This document shows positions 1 to 23,799 of a stretch of DNA of 24,250 nt, piece by piece; the stretch's first letter is position 1, and every line of letters starts with the position of its first letter. The DNA is from a virus, in the IMG/VR virus record IMGVR_UViG_3300031851_001771, positions 1 to 24,250 of that record. One strand, written 5' to 3'. The notes under the pieces are model-generated. The model saw only the letters and a list, made by a program, of their open reading frames with translations, did no database searches and had not been told where the DNA came from. The translations under genes and the position numbers were made by a program.

Positions 1-6
1 GTTATT

Positions 7-399
7 ATGGAAAAGATAGCACAGTTACAAGCAGAGCAAGATAGTTCTTTAAAAAGGATAATTGAAATAGAGGGTGTTGAATATGGATTCCATCCGAATT
101 TGGATGATATTACTCTTGGTGAGTATGCCGATTTAGAAACTTTTATAAAAATGGGAATAGAGCAGCACCTACCAGAAGTTATGGCAGTTTTATATAGACC
201 TGTAGTAGAAAAAAAGAATGAGGTTTATACTATTGAAAAGTATGGAGGGGATTTAACTATACGAGCCGAACAGATGAAAAAGATGTCAGCAGAACAGGTA
301 CAAAGTGCTTTAAGGTTTTTTTTTGCTTTCGTGAGCGCATTGTCAGTGATTTCGGAATCATATTTGACCAAGAAGCTGAAGGAAATGAAGACTCAATAG
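7..399 (+). CDS. Tail assembly chaperone, short zero-frame product (gpG-like)
   Basis: This 130-residue protein is read as the short form of a siphovirus tail assembly chaperone, which coats the tape-measure protein while the tail tube polymerises. The N-terminal ~100 residues are acidic and helical in character (for example HPNLDDITLGEYADLETFI). The main support is the arrangement: codons for three consecutive Phe lie on a T9 run at 316-324, and a second open frame (-1) continues without a stop to 587. This is the layout of lambda gpG/gpGT and its relatives. After the T run the zero frame gives a short lysine-rich tail ending at 399. The frame is open to the window edge, so an upstream start cannot be excluded, but the ATG at 7 is plausible. 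The chaperone role is inferred from architecture rather than from a diagnostic domain. Confidence 0.7.
   Translation: MEKIAQLQAEQDSSLKRIIEIEGVEYGFHPNLDDITLGEYADLETFIKMGIEQHLPEVMAVLYRPVVEKKNEVYTIEKYGGDLTIRAEQMKKMSAEQVQSALRFFFAFVSALSVISESYLTKKLKEMKTQ
315..324 (+). promoter_or_regulatory. Probable -1 programmed ribosomal frameshift slippery site (T9)
   Basis: In the zero frame the codons are AGG TTT TTT TTT GCT. The heptamer T TTT TTT at 318-324 fits the X XXY YYZ rule for tandem slippage, and slipping back one base continues with TGC TTT CGT GAG into the long -1 open frame. No convincing pseudoknot or strong stem was identified just downstream by eye. Transcriptional slippage on the T9 run could give the same product. 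Confidence 0.7.
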
Positions 400-587
400 T
401 CAGTGAAAGTGTAGGAGAGAAGTGGGGATGGTTCGGTGTCATGCACCGATTGTGTAATGAACAGATTGTAAACTTAGAAAGGATAACAAACTTAGGGCTT
501 TTAGAATGTTTAACATGGCTCAGTTATGAAACAGATTTGAACGAAAGTCAAAAAATGAAATTAAATGGTAAGCAACAAAACTTATAA
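318..587 (+). CDS. Tail assembly chaperone, -1 frame extension (gpT-like part of a GT fusion)
   Basis: This open frame is one base back from the preceding chaperone frame and runs from the T9 run to TAA at 585-587, adding about 89 codons. It has no good start codon near its beginning and is most simply read as the distal part of a frameshift fusion of about 193 residues. The translated segment looks like a real protein: it contains KWGWFGVMHRLCNEQIV followed by TNLGLLECLTWLSYETDLNE, a Trp-rich pattern I associate with C-terminal parts of chaperones in Bacteroidota phages. It also fills the otherwise empty gap between 399 and 565. The stop overlaps the start of the next gene by 23 bases. A homopolymer sequencing error that joins two real frames is the main alternative. 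Confidence 0.75.
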   Translation, partial: FFCFRERIVSDFGIIFDQEAEGNEDSIVSESVGEKWGWFGVMHRLCNEQIVNLERITNLGLLECLTWLSYETDLNESQKMKLNGKQQNL

Positions 588-1113
588 TAACGTACTCAAT
601 ACTCTTTTGAGAATGGCAGAGTATCATGAACAGATATACTCTACTTCTGTAGGAGACATATTCAGTATAGATTTGGAAAAGGAGACTAAATTTCCATTAA
701 TCCATTTCAATCCAACGTCAGTATCAACAGGAGATACAACGCTTACTTACAACTTTCAGATATTCATTATGGATATGGTAGATGAGAAAGCAAACTGGAC
801 TGAGAATAATGCAGACGCTAACTTTACTAAACTTTACAAAACTTTAAGTAATGAGCAAGATGTGTTTAATGAAACACTACAAATAGCAACTGACTTTATT
901 GGTATGCTTAGACATTCAGAAAGACAATCATTAGAAGGAGTAGATGATATTAATGCACCTATATACTTTACAGATGACCAATTTACAATAGAGCCATTCC
1001 AAGAAAGGTTTGACAATTTATGTTGTGGATGGGTGTTCTCAATTAATGTATTAGTTCTAAATGACTTCCAGACTTGTAAGATACCTGTAGAAAGAAAAGG
1101 AGCTGGGTACTAA
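565..1113 (+). CDS. Probable tail terminator / tail completion protein
   Basis: This 182-residue protein lies between the tail chaperone and the neck-like protein. I recognise its pattern from Bacteroidota phage tail modules: an N-terminal helix (YNNVLNTLLRMAEYHEQI), a central strand pair (FPLIHFNPTSV, then TLTYNFQIFIMDMV), a phrase of the type NEQDVFNETLQIATDFIGML, and a closing segment EPFQERFDNLCCGWVFSI followed by C and P. Length and layout suit tail terminator proteins, which cap the tube at the head-proximal end. No catalytic motif is visible. The ATG at 565 lies inside the -1 extension of the chaperone, so the two are probably translationally coupled. The terminator assignment is an inference from family resemblance and position. 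Confidence 0.5.
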   Translation: MVSNKTYNNVLNTLLRMAEYHEQIYSTSVGDIFSIDLEKETKFPLIHFNPTSVSTGDTTLTYNFQIFIMDMVDEKANWTENNADANFTKLYKTLSNEQDVFNETLQIATDFIGMLRHSERQSLEGVDDINAPIYFTDDQFTIEPFQERFDNLCCGWVFSINVLVLNDFQTCKIPVERKGAGY

Positions 1114-7262: not shown

Positions 7263-9035
7263 ATGGCAAAAGAGGTTTTAGAAATGGAAGTTAAGTCAAA
7301 CATTAAATCAGTAACTAAAGATACTGATAAAATGACTAAATCCGTCAAAGATGCTAAAGAAGAAACAAAAGGTTTAGCAAAAGAAACTGAAGAAGTAGGA
7401 GAAGCTGCTAAAAAATCAAGTGGTGGTGTCAAGACATTAGCTAAGGGATTTGGTAGTTTAATGAAGTCTTTAGGAATAGTAGCATTAATAGCTACAGCTT
7501 TTACAGCACTAAAAGAAGCGTTAGACAGGAATCAAAAGGTAATGAATGTTGTTAATACTATAATGACTACAATATCAATAACTTTTAATCAAGTTGTAGA
7601 TGTTTTAACTGATACTGTAAAATGGGTAACAGAAAGTAGTGATAGATTTGATGGCTTAGGAAAGGTGCTTACAGGATTAGTAACTATTGGGCTAACACCT
7701 TTAAAGTTAGCGTTTTTTGGTGTTAAGTTAGGAATTGAACAATTAATGTTAGCTTGGGAAAAAAGTCCGTTAGGTGGTGGAGATGAAGATAAAATAAAAA
7801 ATCTAACAAAAAGTATTCAAGAAACTAAAACCTCTATTGAAGGAGTTGCCACAGCAGCAGTAAATGCAGGAGGAGATATTGTAAATAATTTTGGAGATGC
7901 AATTGGTGAGATAGGTTCTATTGGTAAAGTAGCTATTGAAGGTATATCTGAAATTAGTATTAAAGCAAATCATGAACTAGCAAAGGCAACAACTGAAGCT
8001 GTAAATAGCTCGGCATTAGCAGAAGCGGCAATACAAGGATTGATTGAAAAATACGATAGACAAGCAGAGTTGCAAAGACAAATTAGAGATGATGAAACAA
8101 AAACATTTGAAGAAAGAATAGAAGCTAATAAAAAGCTTGGTGAAATTCTTAATGAGCAAGAACAAGAAATGTTAAAATTAGCAGACGCTAGAGTTGCATC
8201 AGCAGCTTTAGAGTTATCGGCTAATGAAGACAACATAGAACTTCAGGTTGCTTATAAACAAGCATTAAATGATAGAGCTGGAGTAGAAGCTCAAGTAGCA
8301 GGATTCAGAAGTGAACAGCTTACAAACCAAGTATCTTTAGAAAAAGAATTAGGAGAAGTACAAAATGAGGTTCTTTTAGCAGGATTAGAAGGATTAGCTC
8401 TGGAATTAGCTGAACTAGAAAGAGCTTATGAATTAAAATTAGAAATGGCTAGAAAAGCAGGAGCTGATACTGCTGCTATTACTGAACAATATGAGAAAGA
8501 GAAAGCTACTATTGTAAAAGGCTATCAAAAAGAAGGAGAAAGGTCTAGTGAAGAACTTGCTAAAAATCAAGTTAAATGGGCTGAGATGACTGCTAATGAA
8601 AAAATGAATCTAGCATCAGAAACAGCAGGGAATCTATCTAAGGCATTAGGAGAAGAAACAGCGGCAGGAAAAGCAGCAGCTATAGTACAAGCTACTATTG
8701 ATACTTATAAAGGTGCTACAGCAGCTTATGCTTCTTTGGCAGGTATTCCTGTAGTTGGTCCTGCTCTTGGGGGTATTGCAGCGGCAGCAGCAGTTGCTTC
8801 AGGTATCGCTAATGTGAAAGCTATTACATCAGCAGGAGGTGGAGGAGGAGGTGGAGGAGGTATGTCAGACAACTCTACCGCTACTGAGCAACCACCAGCA
8901 CCACAAATGATGTCAGGTTCTTTTGATTTAACAGGGGGAGAAGCTCCTGCACCTATCAAAACTTTTGTTGTAACCGACGAGATGACCTCGAGTCAAGCAC
9001 AGCTTGCAAATATAAGACGTAGAGCAACAATTTAA
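7263..9035 (+). CDS. Tail tape-measure protein (short)
   Basis: This 590-residue protein sets tail length and is ejected at infection. Features seen: a charged N-terminus (residues 1-60) with coiled-coil character; a hydrophobic stretch around residues 66-82 (SLMKSLGIVALIATAF); a long Ala/Glu/Lys-rich helical region (~240-470); a second apolar segment near 490-525 (GIPVVGPALGGIAAAAAVAS); a run of nine Gly (encoded at 8835-8861); and a C-terminus ending KTFVVTDEMTSSQAQLANI plus a basic tail. The ending and the Ala/Gly-rich preface are familiar from tape measures of Bacteroidota phages. By the usual 0.15 nm per residue relation the tail would be near 90 nm. Unlike the usual order, it lies about 7 kb from the chaperone gene and directly before the head genes. 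Confidence 0.8.
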   Translation: MAKEVLEMEVKSNIKSVTKDTDKMTKSVKDAKEETKGLAKETEEVGEAAKKSSGGVKTLAKGFGSLMKSLGIVALIATAFTALKEALDRNQKVMNVVNTIMTTISITFNQVVDVLTDTVKWVTESSDRFDGLGKVLTGLVTIGLTPLKLAFFGVKLGIEQLMLAWEKSPLGGGDEDKIKNLTKSIQETKTSIEGVATAAVNAGGDIVNNFGDAIGEIGSIGKVAIEGISEISIKANHELAKATTEAVNSSALAEAAIQGLIEKYDRQAELQRQIRDDETKTFEERIEANKKLGEILNEQEQEMLKLADARVASAALELSANEDNIELQVAYKQALNDRAGVEAQVAGFRSEQLTNQVSLEKELGEVQNEVLLAGLEGLALELAELERAYELKLEMARKAGADTAAITEQYEKEKATIVKGYQKEGERSSEELAKNQVKWAEMTANEKMNLASETAGNLSKALGEETAAGKAAAIVQATIDTYKGATAAYASLAGIPVVGPALGGIAAAAAVASGIANVKAITSAGGGGGGGGGMSDNSTATEQPPAPQMMSGSFDLTGGEAPAPIKTFVVTDEMTSSQAQLANIRRRATI

Positions 9036-9735: not shown

Positions 9736-10647
9736 ATGAAAGAAAATAACTCCGTTACTAAAATAGTAGAATTAGTAATAGCAGATGATAGTCAAGAACT
9801 AGCTATTGATGCTATCTCGCTTGTTCACTCACCTGCGATAGAATCTAACTTTGTATTTTTCGGAAAAGAGAAAAACAACTTGACATTTGCTAAGGTAGAT
9901 GAAGAAAAGAGAATGCTTGTAAGTCCTGCATTAATTCCTAATAAGCAAATCTTTAGATACGACCCTAACACCGATTCAGACTACTATGTTTATTTTAGTC
10001 CTGAAACAGTACGTAAGGCTTCTGAGTTATATTTAAAACATAACAACCACCACAAAGCTACTCACGAGCATTCTGAGAGAGTTTCAGGTGTCTTGACTGT
10101 AGAGTCTTGGATTAAGGAAGGAGACAGCGACAAGTCAAAAATGTACGGATTTGATTTACCTAACGGAACTTGGTTCGTTAAAATGAAAATAGAAAATGAA
10201 GACCTGTGGCAAAAGATAAAAGCAGGTGAACTTAAAGGACTTTCAATAGAAGGCTACTTTACTAATAAATTTGAACAAATGCAAAATCAAGAACCAACAA
10301 CAGAAGAAGTAAGAACTGCACTAAAAGAATTGTTAAGTGTTCAGAAGGTTGAGTTGGGGCTAATAGATGATTTTGAAAAGCTATCTAGCAAAGCTATAAA
10401 ATCAGGTACTAATGCAGGTGGAGATGTCCAAGATTGGATAGACAAGCTACCTAAGTTAATTTCAGCATTAAGAGATTCGGAAAAAGACCAAGATTTAGTC
10501 GTTACAATGGGTGAGAAAATAGAAAAACAAGCAAAAGAATTAGGAGTAGATTTACCTAAAAATGTTACAAAAGGACTAACAGGTGCTAAAGAGTGGTCAA
10601 GTGAAATAAAATCTATAATAAAAAAAGCTCAAGGATTTAAATTATAA
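9736..10647 (+). CDS. XkdF-like prohead protease (Peptidase S78_2 type) with C-terminal helical domain
   Basis: The N-terminal ~180 residues match the XkdF-like serine protease pattern: KIVELVIADD and IDAISLVHSPAIESNFVFF (25-42), MLVSPALIPNKQIFR (60-74), a candidate catalytic His in ATHEHSERVSG (H110 or H112), and a candidate catalytic Ser in IKAGELKGLSIEGYF (S170). Such enzymes have a herpesvirus-protease-like fold and trim scaffold and other head proteins inside the procapsid. The C-terminal ~115 residues form a separate Lys-rich helical part with KVELGLIDD at 204-212 and KQAKELGV near 254-261. Both are echoed in the flanking genes. The position before the scaffold and major capsid genes fits head maturation. 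Catalytic residue choice is by analogy and not certain. Confidence 0.75.
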   Translation: MKENNSVTKIVELVIADDSQELAIDAISLVHSPAIESNFVFFGKEKNNLTFAKVDEEKRMLVSPALIPNKQIFRYDPNTDSDYYVYFSPETVRKASELYLKHNNHHKATHEHSERVSGVLTVESWIKEGDSDKSKMYGFDLPNGTWFVKMKIENEDLWQKIKAGELKGLSIEGYFTNKFEQMQNQEPTTEEVRTALKELLSVQKVELGLIDDFEKLSSKAIKSGTNAGGDVQDWIDKLPKLISALRDSEKDQDLVVTMGEKIEKQAKELGVDLPKNVTKGLTGAKEWSSEIKSIIKKAQGFKL

Positions 10648-10653
10648 TAAAAT

Positions 10654-11082
10654 ATGAAACCAACAACAGAACAAATACTAAGTGCTTTAAACAAGCTAAT
10701 AAGAGAAAACAAAACTGAACTAAAAGCAGAAAAGGTTGAGTTGGGAGATATTGATGATTTAAAAAAATTAGTAGATAAGTCTAAAAAGATATTAAAAGAA
10801 GTAACTACTTTGGAAAAGAAAATACAAAGTGAACAGAAAACATTAAGAAAAGCAGTAGATACTTACAATAAATTTGCTAAAAATTTAGATGAATTTGAAA
10901 AAGAAAAATCACCCTTACAATCAAGAGTTAGAAATGGGATAGACGGAATTAGAAAACAAGCAAAAGAATTAGGTATAAATGCAAACAAAATAGATGGTAT
11001 GCAAGAAGCGATTACAGTAGTTGATGAATTAGCAAAAAGAAGTGCTTTAGGTGGTGAAGCAAGTTTAATGTTTATGAGCTAA
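10654..11082 (+). CDS. Paralogue of the protease C-terminal domain (head-cluster helical protein)
   Basis: This 142-residue Lys-rich, probably helical protein lines up with the last ~115 residues of the upstream protease. PTTEQILSALNKLI matches PTTEEVRTALKELL; KVELGDIDDLKKL (27-39) matches KVELGLIDDFEKL; and RKQAKELGI matches EKQAKELGV. It therefore looks like a duplicated stand-alone copy of that domain, without the catalytic part. A role as scaffold-like filler, protease cofactor or minor head protein is possible. It begins six bases after the protease stop and is followed by a ~70-bp A/T-rich leader before the scaffold-like gene. Confidence 0.5.
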   Translation: MKPTTEQILSALNKLIRENKTELKAEKVELGDIDDLKKLVDKSKKILKEVTTLEKKIQSEQKTLRKAVDTYNKFAKNLDEFEKEKSPLQSRVRNGIDGIRKQAKELGINANKIDGMQEAITVVDELAKRSALGGEASLMFMS

Positions 11083-11088
11083 AAAATC

Positions 11089-11129
11089 TAAAAATCAAAC
11101 AAATAAATAATTATTCTATTATATAAATA
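11089..11129 (+). promoter_or_regulatory. Two-part leader element, copy 2 (possible phage promoter)
   Basis: TAAAAATCAAACAAA (11089-11103) and TATATAAATA (11120-11129) lie 16 bases apart in the 73-bp non-coding gap before the scaffold-like gene. The same words occur 15 bases apart before the CxxC gene. If this is a promoter, transcription would start shortly after 11129 and lift expression of scaffold and capsid. No canonical TAnnTTTG element is present in the gap. Confidence 0.35.
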
Positions 11130-13466: not shown

Positions 13467-13498
13467 AAGACCTGCTTTTGTGGGTCTTTTCTTTTTTT
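13467..13498 (+). terminator. Strong intrinsic terminator after the tail-tube gene
   Basis: AAGACCTGC (13467-13475) pairs with GTGGGTCTT (13480-13488) as nine base pairs, two of them G-U, around a TTTT loop. TTCTTTTTTT follows to 13498. The stem-loop and U-tract make a clear rho-independent terminator, ending the transcript of the head and tail-tube genes. The first TTG in frame with the next gene falls inside it and is therefore not a real start. Confidence 0.85.
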
Positions 13499-13537
13499 AA
13501 TCCAAACAGAATCAAAGTTTTTCTATTATATAGTATA

Positions 13538-14998
13538 ATGATACAAGCATTCACACAATCATCCTTTACTGCCTATATTTCTACAGAAGATAATCGTATA
13601 GATACATCAGTTGCTTCAACTCAGATAAGACATTTATTTAAGTTCATAAATGATATGGATGGTTCTATTCAATATGCGTATGGAGCTAGTGAAACAATTT
13701 ACAATAGATATACAGCACTACCATTTACATATAGTATAACTCCAAATATGTATAAAGGCGAAACAAAGCTACTACCAGCAGGACATTGGAAATATGAAGT
13801 CTATGAAGTAAGTTGGATAGGAACAGTATCAGTAAGTGTAGGTTATGCACCTGCTACAGAAACAGATGTATTAAGTCCTGTATCTGATATAAAAGGAGTT
13901 GTGCAAGGCTTGGTAACAAAAGGCATTTTAAATTTAACAGAAAAAGCAGGAACAGAGCAAGTACAATATACACAACATGAAGAACCTGCTGGAGATAATT
14001 ATATATGGTATGGTGGAGGGTCTGCACCTGAAGATACTTTTACATTTTCAGTTAATACAGCTAATACATCTACAGATTCAAGTTCATCTAGTCAATACAA
14101 ACTACCTTTAGTTGATGCAGGAGCTATTAATATGAAGGTCTATTGGGGTGATGGAAGTGATGATACAATAACATCTTATGACCAAGCAGAAGTATTACAT
14201 ACTTACGCAAGTCCAGGAACATATACTATTAATATAGAAAACGAGGTTAGAGGATGGCAACAATATCAAAGCTCACCAGCAAATAAAAAAGACCACTTAA
14301 AGATACTTGAAATTAGTAAGTGGAGTAATTTTACGATAACTGATAATACAGCTTTTTCTTTTTCTGAGAATATGACAGTAACAGCAACTGATAAACCTAC
14401 TATTGAAACAACAACTTTGGCTTGGTGTTTTAGGGGTTGTAGTAATTTCAATACAAATATTGATAATTGGGATGTAAGTGCAGTAACAAACATAAGTGTT
14501 ATGTTTAGGGATTGTACTTTATTTAATCAACCTCTAAATAGTTGGAATACAAGTAATGTTGATAATTTTGGTTCTACTTTTCAAGGTTGCCCTGCATTCA
14601 ATCAGCCTTTAAATAATTGGGATACATCATCAGTTGTTAATTTTTCCAATATGTTTTTTCAAGCAACAATTTTCAACCAAAACATAGGAGCTTGGGCTAT
14701 GAGTTCAGCAACTAATATAGGTGCAATGTTTAGCACTGCAACAGCGTTTGACCAAGATATAAGCGGTTGGGATGTAAGAAATGTTACAATAGCTACTAAT
14801 TTCTTTGAGTTATCTGGTTTATCTACAGAATTCTATGACTTGTTATTAGTGTCATGGAATTCTAATACTCCTGTTGCTTCATCATTAACAATTGATTTCG
14901 GAACGAGTCAGTATACTTTAGGAGGTACACAAGAAGCAGCAAGAACAAATTTAATAAGCACACATGGTTGGACAATAACTGATGGAGGTGGAATATAA
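13538..14998 (+). CDS. Modular virion surface protein: phage N-domain, PKD-like domain, DUF285 (BspA-like) repeats
   Basis: I place the start at the ATG at 13538 (486 residues). Earlier in-frame codons fall in the terminator and are not ATG. Residues 1-150 (MIQAFTQSSFTAYISTEDN onward, with LLPAGHWKYEVYEVSWIGTV) look like a structural domain common in Bacteroidota phages. A hinge near 150-165 (EEPAGDNYIWYGGG) leads to a PKD-like segment at 165-240 with VYWGDGSDDTI and VLHTYASPGTYTINI. Residues 300-420 carry about five repeats of ~25 residues of the DUF285/BspA type (for example FNQPLNSWNTSNV, FNQPLNNWDTSSV, FDQDISGWDVRNV). Such modules bind surface glycans or proteins in bacterial adhesins. 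I infer a capsid- or tail-exposed adhesin; exact placement on the virion is unknown. Confidence 0.7.
   Translation: MIQAFTQSSFTAYISTEDNRIDTSVASTQIRHLFKFINDMDGSIQYAYGASETIYNRYTALPFTYSITPNMYKGETKLLPAGHWKYEVYEVSWIGTVSVSVGYAPATETDVLSPVSDIKGVVQGLVTKGILNLTEKAGTEQVQYTQHEEPAGDNYIWYGGGSAPEDTFTFSVNTANTSTDSSSSSQYKLPLVDAGAINMKVYWGDGSDDTITSYDQAEVLHTYASPGTYTINIENEVRGWQQYQSSPANKKDHLKILEISKWSNFTITDNTAFSFSENMTVTATDKPTIETTTLAWCFRGCSNFNTNIDNWDVSAVTNISVMFRDCTLFNQPLNSWNTSNVDNFGSTFQGCPAFNQPLNNWDTSSVVNFSNMFFQATIFNQNIGAWAMSSATNIGAMFSTATAFDQDISGWDVRNVTIATNFFELSGLSTEFYDLLLVSWNSNTPVASSLTIDFGTSQYTLGGTQEAARTNLISTHGWTITDGGGI
14438..14797 (+). repeat. DUF285/BspA-like ~25-residue protein repeats
   Basis: The repeats are visible at protein level as F(N/D)Q followed four to six residues later by (S/N/D)W(N/D)(T/V)S and then an MF-type turn. 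They are about 75 bases apart; copies begin near 14446, 14520, 14598, 14673 and 14749. At DNA level they are diverged, so they are old relative to recent tandem duplication. Confidence 0.65.
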
Positions 14999-16061: not shown

Positions 16062-18044
16062 ATGAAAGACACAATGATTAACATCAATTTGGAAACTTCC
16101 ACCTCACCAGTCGTGGCAGAGGTTAGAGGTAAAGATTGGATTGAGTACGGAACAGAAGATTGGAAAAACTTATATCCACAGTTCTTAATAGACCTTTACT
16201 ATTCAAGCAGTATTTCAGCCGCTATTATTAATGCGACTGCTGAGATGATTGCAGGAGAAGACCTTATTATAGAGGATGAAGATGATAGGGATACGGAAGC
16301 TAGAGTTAAGTTACAGAACTTTATGGATAGAGCTAATGGAAACGAAAGTTTACATGAGGTATTAAAAAAGGCAGCTTTTGATTTTAAACTTCAAGGAGCT
16401 TTTGCTCTTAATATTATATGGTCAAAAGACAGAACACAAATTGCAGAAATATATCATGTAGCTGTAGAAAAAATTAGATGTGCTAGACCTGATGAGTTTG
16501 GAAAGACTCCAGGATATTATATATCTTCAGATTGGTCAAATACTAGACAAAACAAGCCTTATTATGTACCTGCTTTTAATGCAAATGATAGAACTTGTGC
16601 TAATCAAATTATGTATTCAGGTCTTTACAGTCCTAATATGAACTCTTATTATACTCCTGACTATGTTAGTTGTAACAATTGGGCTTTGATTGATAGTCGT
16701 GTTTCTGAGTATCACTTAAACAATATATCTAATGGGTTTGCAGGGTCGTTTATGATTTCTTTCGCAAATGGGATTCCAACGGCTGAAGAAAGAAACCAGA
16801 TAGAAAGAAGTCTTACTGATAAGTTTTGCTCAGAAAGTAATGCAGGAAAATTTGTACTGACGTTTTCAGATGATAAAACTAGGACTCCTGAGATTACACC
16901 AATAAGTCCTGACAAATTATCTGAACAATATATCGCTTTACAAGAGCTTTTGACTCAAAACATCTTATCAGGTCATAGAGTAACATCCCCTATGCTGATG
17001 GGTATAAAGTCCGATACAGGGCTTGGAAACAACGCTGACGAGCTTAATTCAGCAGCAAATTTTTATCATAATACAGTAATTGTAGGATTCCAGGATATGA
17101 TAGTTAAACAGCTTAGAAAAATCTTTAAGATTAATAATATGGATATGCCTGTAAATTTTGTACAGCTTAAACCAATTACTTTAGAGTTTACTTCTGAAGA
17201 CCTTAAAGGAATTTTAACAGAAGACGAATTGCGTGAGCAAATGGGGTTAGCTCCCTTAGATGTAGAAGTAAGAGAAGATTTTAGTAAAGTTGGAATGGTA
17301 GACGGAAAGCCTGTTTTTAGCACTATAGCTGAAGCTGAAGCTCACGCAAAGACTTTAGGGTGTGAAGGGTATCATGAACACGAATTAGACGGCAAAACGG
17401 CTTATATGGCTTGTGAGGGTCATGCAGAAGCTACAGAATTATCAAAATTTATTGAAGAATTTGGAGAAGACGAACCTGAAGGTTATACTCTTTTGGATGA
17501 AGAAATGGTAGATGATGAGCATGAAGACTTTGATTTTGAAAATGAATTAAACGAAATAGGAAAAGTAGAACTTGCAACTGTACCTAAATCTGATAGAGAC
17601 GGCTTAGATGACCAAGATGGTTGGAGTAAAAAAGTTAGTAAATTTTTTAAAGTAAGATACAAATACGATAGAGACCCTGCACTTACTAATAAATCAGGAA
17701 CTAAAAGAAGTTTTTGTAAAAAAATGATGGGTGCGAATAAGCTATATAAAAAATCTGATTTAGTAGCATTAGATAATAAAGCGGTTAATCCTGGCTTTGG
17801 TATTAAGGGTGCGGCAACGTACTCGATTTGGAAATTTAAGGGCGGACCACAGTGTTTCCATCGGTTTATCCGCAAGGTGTATGTAATGGAGTTAGAAGAT
17901 GCTTGGAAAGAAAAAGACATTACAAGATATGGTAAATTAATTTCTACTGCTAAAGCTAGAAGTCAAGGTTTTTATCCTGAGCCTAACGATAAGAAAGTAG
18001 CACAAGCACCAAGAACAATGAAAAATAACGGATATTACAATTAA
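16062..18044 (+). CDS. Portal protein with Cys/His-containing and FCKKM C-terminal extension
   Basis: This 660-residue protein forms the dodecameric DNA gate of the head. The portal core (~20-410) shows WIEYGTEDWKNLYPQFLIDL, a membrane-free helical stretch, GHRVTSPMLMGIKSDTGLGN and ADELNSAANFYHNTVIVGF, and ends with ILTEDELREQMGLAPLD, all familiar portal landmarks. The extension has a Cys/His-rich piece (C434, H438, H440, C451, H454), a strongly acidic linker (~465-500), KVELATV at 501-507, and a C-terminal domain with RYKYD, KRSFCKKMM (C552) and GGPQCFHRF (C598, H600). I associate that domain with head proteins of Bacteroidota phages. The position after the capsid and adhesin genes, not before the protease, is unusual. 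Portal identity is strong; the extension's function is unknown. Confidence 0.8.
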   Translation: MKDTMININLETSTSPVVAEVRGKDWIEYGTEDWKNLYPQFLIDLYYSSSISAAIINATAEMIAGEDLIIEDEDDRDTEARVKLQNFMDRANGNESLHEVLKKAAFDFKLQGAFALNIIWSKDRTQIAEIYHVAVEKIRCARPDEFGKTPGYYISSDWSNTRQNKPYYVPAFNANDRTCANQIMYSGLYSPNMNSYYTPDYVSCNNWALIDSRVSEYHLNNISNGFAGSFMISFANGIPTAEERNQIERSLTDKFCSESNAGKFVLTFSDDKTRTPEITPISPDKLSEQYIALQELLTQNILSGHRVTSPMLMGIKSDTGLGNNADELNSAANFYHNTVIVGFQDMIVKQLRKIFKINNMDMPVNFVQLKPITLEFTSEDLKGILTEDELREQMGLAPLDVEVREDFSKVGMVDGKPVFSTIAEAEAHAKTLGCEGYHEHELDGKTAYMACEGHAEATELSKFIEEFGEDEPEGYTLLDEEMVDDEHEDFDFENELNEIGKVELATVPKSDRDGLDDQDGWSKKVSKFFKVRYKYDRDPALTNKSGTKRSFCKKMMGANKLYKKSDLVALDNKAVNPGFGIKGAATYSIWKFKGGPQCFHRFIRKVYVMELEDAWKEKDITRYGKLISTAKARSQGFYPEPNDKKVAQAPRTMKNNGYYN

Positions 18045-23431: not shown

Positions 23432-23799
23432 TGAGATTAATTAAAACAATGTCAAAAGAAGATTTGATATTATCTTCAGTTGATTTAGTAAGTAAGACTT
23501 ACATAGAGTTAGGGCAAAATAATGTAGAAGAAGAAACTATTGAAATAATGGCTACAAGTTTAGCTGCTGACTTAGCTAGAATGTATAAGAATTTCTATTT
23601 TGAAGATGCAGAAAAAGCATTTAATTTAGGAGTAAGAAGTCCTATAACAAATGACTTTATACATTTAACTGTTCCAACTTATATGAAATGGCTTAGAAGA
23701 CATCAGGAATTAATATGGGATGCTAGGTCAAGAGTAGATAAAGGAGAAAATCCCAAGCAAGTTCCGCATTTCAGACCTGAACCAAAATTATTAAAATGA
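23431..23799 (+). CDS. Unknown helical protein after the initiator
   Basis: This is a 122-residue protein. A helix-rich sequence begins MRLIKTMSKEDLILSSVDLV, continues KTYIELGQNNVEEETIEIMA and TSLAADLARMYKNFYFEDAE, and ends with VPTYMKWLRRHQELIWDARS. No named family is recognised. Position directly after the replication-organiser-like gene (TAATG overlap) is often that of a helicase loader or of a protein tied to it, and the size and helical content are compatible with this. Such a role is inferred from position only. It overlaps the next small ORF as ATGA. Confidence 0.5.
   Translation: MRLIKTMSKEDLILSSVDLVSKTYIELGQNNVEEETIEIMATSLAADLARMYKNFYFEDAEKAFNLGVRSPITNDFIHLTVPTYMKWLRRHQELIWDARSRVDKGENPKQVPHFRPEPKLLK

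Follow-up and report, generated by a model that had tools for sequence, protein, structure and literature searches.

A widespread phage gene divided between two reading frames at nine or more Ts: a probable tail assembly chaperone and a possible case of transcriptional slippage

As far as PMC5009743 relays the work of Xu, Hendrix and Duda (2004), the G/GT genes of phage lambda yield a short zero-frame protein and a long -1 fusion product, lie in an operon of tail genes, use a slippery site of low efficiency, and keep this arrangement across very divergent sequences. The split gene described here, with its predicted products, resembles G/GT in each of these respects. Set against the same partial account, it differs in that its putative recoding site never has fewer than nine Ts without a break, in that the zero-frame tail beyond this site is long (17 to more than 60 codons across the family) and kept open, and in that the gene follows TerL, with several genes standing before the tape measure gene; no relation between the two was detectable by sequence or by solved fold.

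Slippage by RNA polymerase offers a second set of precedents. In bacteria, transcriptional slippage classically takes place on runs of nine A or T (PMC1088944), and it is described for homopolymers of eight or longer (PMC3711429). The genes known to use it at runs of nine (Thermus dnaX, Shigella mxiE and IS elements; PMC1088944) share with the split gene conserved overlapping ORFs at a homopolymer of at least nine and the avoidance of such runs in other genes of the genome; the longer product of mxiE, like the fusion predicted here, needs one extra U. Those are cellular or IS genes, whereas the split gene is a phage gene known from its sequence. A search of the open-access literature found no report of transcriptional slippage in a phage tail gene, or of a T-run recoding site in the gene described here.

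The window (the whole stretch of DNA analysed, an IMG/VR virus record of 24,250 bases at 33% GC) carries the split gene at its left edge (Table 1), and the T9 run is its only run of eight or more Ts. An earlier note on this DNA had placed the run at 316-324, the end of the zero frame at 399 and a -1 frame open to 587, all of which we confirm on the sequence. As a correction to it, the ATG at 7 turns out on comparison with complete relatives to be an internal Met, and the true 5' end lies beyond the left edge of the window. Complete relatives begin MKVKIKK..., some 65-70 aa further upstream, and have about 172 residues before the slip, which would give a short zero-frame protein of about 200 aa and a long -1 fusion of about 255-260 aa. 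Both would arise from one start, with part of expression slipping at the run of at least nine Ts in a manner equivalent to one inserted U. The zero frame of the window reads ...QSALRFFFAFVSALSVISESYLTKKLKEMKTQ up to its stop. In the -1 frame no stop occurs from 237 through 584; translation of its second half gives FFCFRERIV...KWGWFGVMHRLCNEQIVNLERI...LTWLSYETD, and the continuation in pieces is FFCFRERIVSDFG...KWGWFGVMHRLCNEQ...LTWLSYETDLNESQKMKLNGKQQNL.

Table 1. The split gene and the neighbours discussed in the text (window coordinates)
Feature	Position	Strand	Basis or remark
Zero-frame ORF, predicted short product, 5'-truncated by the window edge	1..399	+	Stop 397-399
T9 run, putative recoding site; zero-frame codons AGG TTT TTT TTT GCT	316..324	+	Read from sequence; at least nine Ts in 415/415 distinct related loci
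In-phase heptamer T_TTT_TTT, candidate ribosomal tandem-slip site	318..324	+	Any T9 has exactly one in-phase T_TTT_TTT
Zero-frame tail past the slip, 24 residues, AFVSALSVISESYLTKKLKEMKTQ; dual-coding overlap with the -1 extension	325..396	+	Open-frame simulation; AlphaFold2 model of a relative
Second half in the -1 frame, 89 residues; joined to the first in the predicted long product	318..587	+	Stop 585-587; conserved to ~25% identity
Following gene (182 aa), probably a gene of the tail or neck	565..1113	+	Starts inside the end of the -1 half; order matches a relative (L172)
Tape measure protein gene, several genes downstream of the split gene	7263..9035	+	PHROG 1538, E=1.6e-13

Used alone as a query, the -1 half recovers 568 related stretches in IMG/VR, and the zero-frame half recovers 139. 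Repeated scans with ever more distant queries and with profile HMMs were used to build a set of distinct loci containing both halves. The second half lies in the -1 frame in 351 of the 353 loci of the first set, none of which has a T run shorter than nine; two scans run after this rule had been noticed added 62 new loci, all in the -1 frame and all T9 or T10. The combined set thus has the -1 relation in 413 of 415 distinct loci and at least nine uninterrupted Ts in 415 of 415 (T9 in 349, T10 in 65, T12 in one). One exception, L182, looked in-frame as a result of an apparent contig deletion inside its first half, and its local relation is still -1. The other, L433 (463-1242), has T10 where its relatives have T9 and reads as a single continuous ORF of 259 codons; it is the only relative whose T10 fuses the halves, either as a real frame-fused variant or through a sequencing indel. 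The test that the earlier note proposed, conservation of the T run and the -1 frame in related phages, therefore came out in its favor across these loci and in a cultured isolate. A single gene with a conserved -1 shift of frame at the T run is strongly supported by these comparisons. Outside virus collections, a scan of 84,980 bacterial and archaeal genomes gave a single confirmed match, in a contig of a Pseudooceanicola MAG (L159, PAPR01000049.1), and this contig may itself be a phage binned along with the bacterium; two short peptide patterns served as queries, so that relatives could be missed.

Signs of selection are found in both frames. Variability by codon position follows the zero frame up to the run and the -1 frame beyond it, each time in the manner of coding sequence (0.29/0.12/0.36 over the three -1 codon positions), the register changing at the run; the -1 half is coding and under purifying selection. 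Past the slip, a zero-frame stop within 17 codons occurs in 0 of 345 relatives, against 74% in a simulation in which the -1 codons were redrawn synonymously. These genes write Ile most often as ATA, yet ATA never stands at the -1 codon at which it would give a zero-frame stop. The second conserved Phe codon past the slip is TTT in 344 of 345, against a TTC share of 23-27% at conserved Phe columns outside the overlap. The sequences show that selection keeps the zero-frame tail open, and because the frame is held open past the slip, both the short and the long protein are probably made. In an AlphaFold2 model of the zero-frame product of one relative (L002, mean pLDDT 93.1), the overlapped tail ends a long C-terminal helix (residues 165-200). 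Since the tail is kept open and completes this helix, the short product probably needs it; the long product probably swaps it for the second domain. The model of the fused L433 protein (mean pLDDT 67) is confident in the second half only.

Searches with the portal and capsid proteins led to the cultured Nonlabens phages P12024S/L. P12024S was found only with profile HMMs of the two halves, which match it in gp38 at E=1.1e-14 and in the -1 frame spanning gp38/gp39 at E=8e-7; a tblastn search of INPHARED with both halves gave no match. At about 25% amino acid identity, this is a direct homologue of the window gene, with TerL directly upstream and with the same split in the -1 direction at a T9 in the same site (23578-23586, ATA CTT TTT TTT TAT CAT). 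GenBank annotates two unrelated genes, gp38 and a truncated 55-aa gp39, each as "hypothetical protein." Because gp38 belongs to PHROG 32199 and gp39 to PHROG 38404, the public families keep the halves separate; read as proposed here, these two families, both "unknown," become one gene. The expectation in the earlier note that a gene caller would miss the second half holds only in part, since gp39 was annotated in truncated form and some relatives offer a TTG start at the slip. In Flavobacterium phage 6H (L444), gp10 (minus strand, 10352-10927) is distantly related to the first half by structure and by profile. An open stretch in another frame follows it in the unannotated 305 bp, with no long T run; the recoding site of 6H would then seem to be a different one, unless its sequence has an indel.

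If lambda gpG/gpGT is the model, the split gene would supply a short and a long tail assembly chaperone, whose task is to load the tape measure protein and bring in subunits of the tail tube. From the conserved ORF arrangement and this analogy, it is reasonably likely that two proteins, one short and one -1-fused and long, are made from one start by slippage at nine or more Ts and act as tail chaperones. The ORF pair expected for a short product and a frameshift fusion is indicated by the -1 relation in 413 of 415 loci together with selection on both frames, and the slippery heptamer that ends the first ORF in phase has its counterpart in a T_TTT_TTT at every locus. Gene order in a relative (L172) runs TerS-TerL-split gene-tail genes. 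A G/GT pair stands just upstream of the tape measure gene; here several genes lie between the split gene and 7263. Chaperone families diverge beyond recognition, and the split gene has no match among Pfam, NCBIfam and the named PHROG chaperone families, no usable match by sequence in PDB and none there by fold. The best matches in BFVD are uncharacterized phage proteins, P12024S gp38 among them, as well as one from phage 6H that with 191 aa is as long as gp10; those annotated "Tail assembly chaperone" are weak, at E 0.088 (prob 0.99, TMt 0.65) and E 0.35. Matches to PHROG 166, "tail protein," in 14 of 90 first halves are short and weak and were set aside. With no curated family or solved fold matching, and annotated chaperones only at weak E values, the chaperone role is the best reading by architecture, and we infer it from that architecture, the neighborhood and the weak fold match. 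Of the G/GT assignment made in the earlier note, the short/long -1 architecture survives, and the chaperone identity is less certain.

The run itself has a peculiar pattern of variation. Runs of 9, 10 or 12 Ts, never fewer than nine, occur in all three codon phases, in contexts such as XGG TTT TTT TTT; NTT TTT TTT TAN; CTT TTT TTT TTC; ATG TTT TTT TTT TAC; and GCT TTT TTT TTC. Parsimony on a quick tree gives 34 changes of run class and 21 changes of phase (an estimate, the alignment being short). The reasoning that run length and not phase is conserved is limited by the hydrophobic flanking residues, which constrain the flanks. A C at the last slip base, synonymous in both frames, appears only where the run is lengthened upstream to T10. 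In 948 other genes of the same phages (619 kb), runs of at least nine Ts number 0 against 8.2 expected and runs of at least nine As 16 against 69 (a fourfold depletion), while in-phase T7/T8 is tolerated (64 occurrences); the T7 deficit differs little between in-phase (0.64) and out-of-phase (about 0.8) runs. Synonymous change near the run shows only a mild, patchy dip. A +1-frame stop, expected if the polymerase also deletes a U, follows after 3-4 codons in observed and simulated sequences alike.

Several other explanations of the locus can be weighed against these data. Two independent genes, the second with its own start, would agree with the GenBank listing of gp38 and gp39 as distinct genes and with the TTG at the slip in some relatives. 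This is very improbable, in keeping with a -1-frame ATG between the frame opening and the slip in 0 of 112 loci, with homology that begins exactly at the run, and with the invariance of the run itself; homologues with separate starts, which the earlier note named as a finding that would overturn its reading, are on the ATG count very unlikely. It likewise named resequencing to eight or ten Ts. A T9 is error-prone, and the T10 of L433 does give one continuous ORF, but an indel from sequencing or assembly is put out of serious consideration by the equal frame relation in 413 of 415 loci from many metagenomes and in an isolate, with at least nine Ts throughout. A different role for a real short/long pair, as some other assembly factor belonging to the packaging or neck module beside the terminase, is unlikely on our assessment: the position directly after TerL, the distant tape measure gene and the silence of the chaperone families speak for it, while G/GT genes are recognized by just such a -1 overlap of a short and a long product within a tail operon, and the BFVD chaperone matches, weak as they are, point the same way.

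The closest contest concerns the agent of the slip. To our knowledge, the tail chaperone frameshifts that have been tested are all ribosomal. In a purely ribosomal -1 frameshift, two tRNA-Phe would slip in tandem at T_TTT_TTT, the mechanism of other siphovirus tail chaperones, with the extra Ts a by-product of conserved hydrophobic residues. The lambda-type G/GT precedent (PMC5009743) favors it, as does E. coli, where H_HH.U_UU.Y motifs are among the most efficient heptamers and U_UU.C ranks above U_UU.U (PMC4066793). The ribosomal rule is obeyed at every locus, since a T9 always includes one T_TTT_TTT in phase; and because the flanking V/L/I-F-F-L residues partly force the outer Ts, the floor of nine is itself compatible with a ribosomal slip. 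We put this reading at somewhat below an even chance, for T7 or T8 runs that would keep the heptamer occur in 0 of 415 loci, and other genes tolerate in-phase T7/T8 while runs of nine or more Ts are absent from them. U_UUU_UUC, moreover, should slip well on the ribosome (PMC4066793), yet the synonymous C is seen only alongside the T10 extension. A search for a downstream stimulatory stem-loop or pseudoknot in 22 divergent sequences found no excess folding energy (mean z ~0). These observations, and the floor of nine in all three codon phases, exceed what the ribosomal rule asks. The strict minimum run length hints at a possible role of RNA polymerase rather than the ribosome, although mutational instability can also cause the shortage of long runs elsewhere. 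We lean slightly toward slippage of RNA polymerase on the homopolymer over tandem ribosomal slippage at T_TTT_TTT; both may contribute. Of the -1 frameshift proposed in the earlier note, the frame change at the T run stands, and its ribosomal nature is now less certain, transcriptional slippage fitting at least as well. The fuller proposal is tentative, a little short of an even chance: that a widespread, mostly uncultured phage family sets the ratio of short to long tail-assembly protein by RNA polymerase slippage at nine or more Ts, not by a shift on the ribosome, and that one stretch of DNA codes for both the zero-frame tail and the fusion domain.

Hundreds of uncultured phages and one cultured pair retain the split gene at nine or more Ts, and the T-run split can serve as a motif for annotating such phages. 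With hundreds of variants that shift phase yet never fall below nine Ts, the family is also a natural setting in which to ask whether phage tail genes can use slippage in transcription, instead of translation, for programmed recoding.

Some further features of the window and its relatives were seen along the way. A leader motif, TTCTATTATA, occurs in the window at 11114 and 13521, and many relatives have it ahead of the split gene (e.g. L002:2464). Of its 189 non-redundant occurrences, 187 are followed within 60 nt by an ORF that starts with ATG, the distance to the ATG being mostly 4-7 or 32-34 nt. The motif may be a phage promoter or a translation-start element. The portal gene (16062-18044) has a DUF3721-like segment in a C-terminal extension (PF12518, residues 419-455, E=4.8e-6; window 17316-17430). 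A gene of the structural region (13478-14998) has a C-terminal part that looks like repeats of the form NWDVSxVTNxxxMFxxCxxFNQPLNxW, BspA/DUF285-like by eye.
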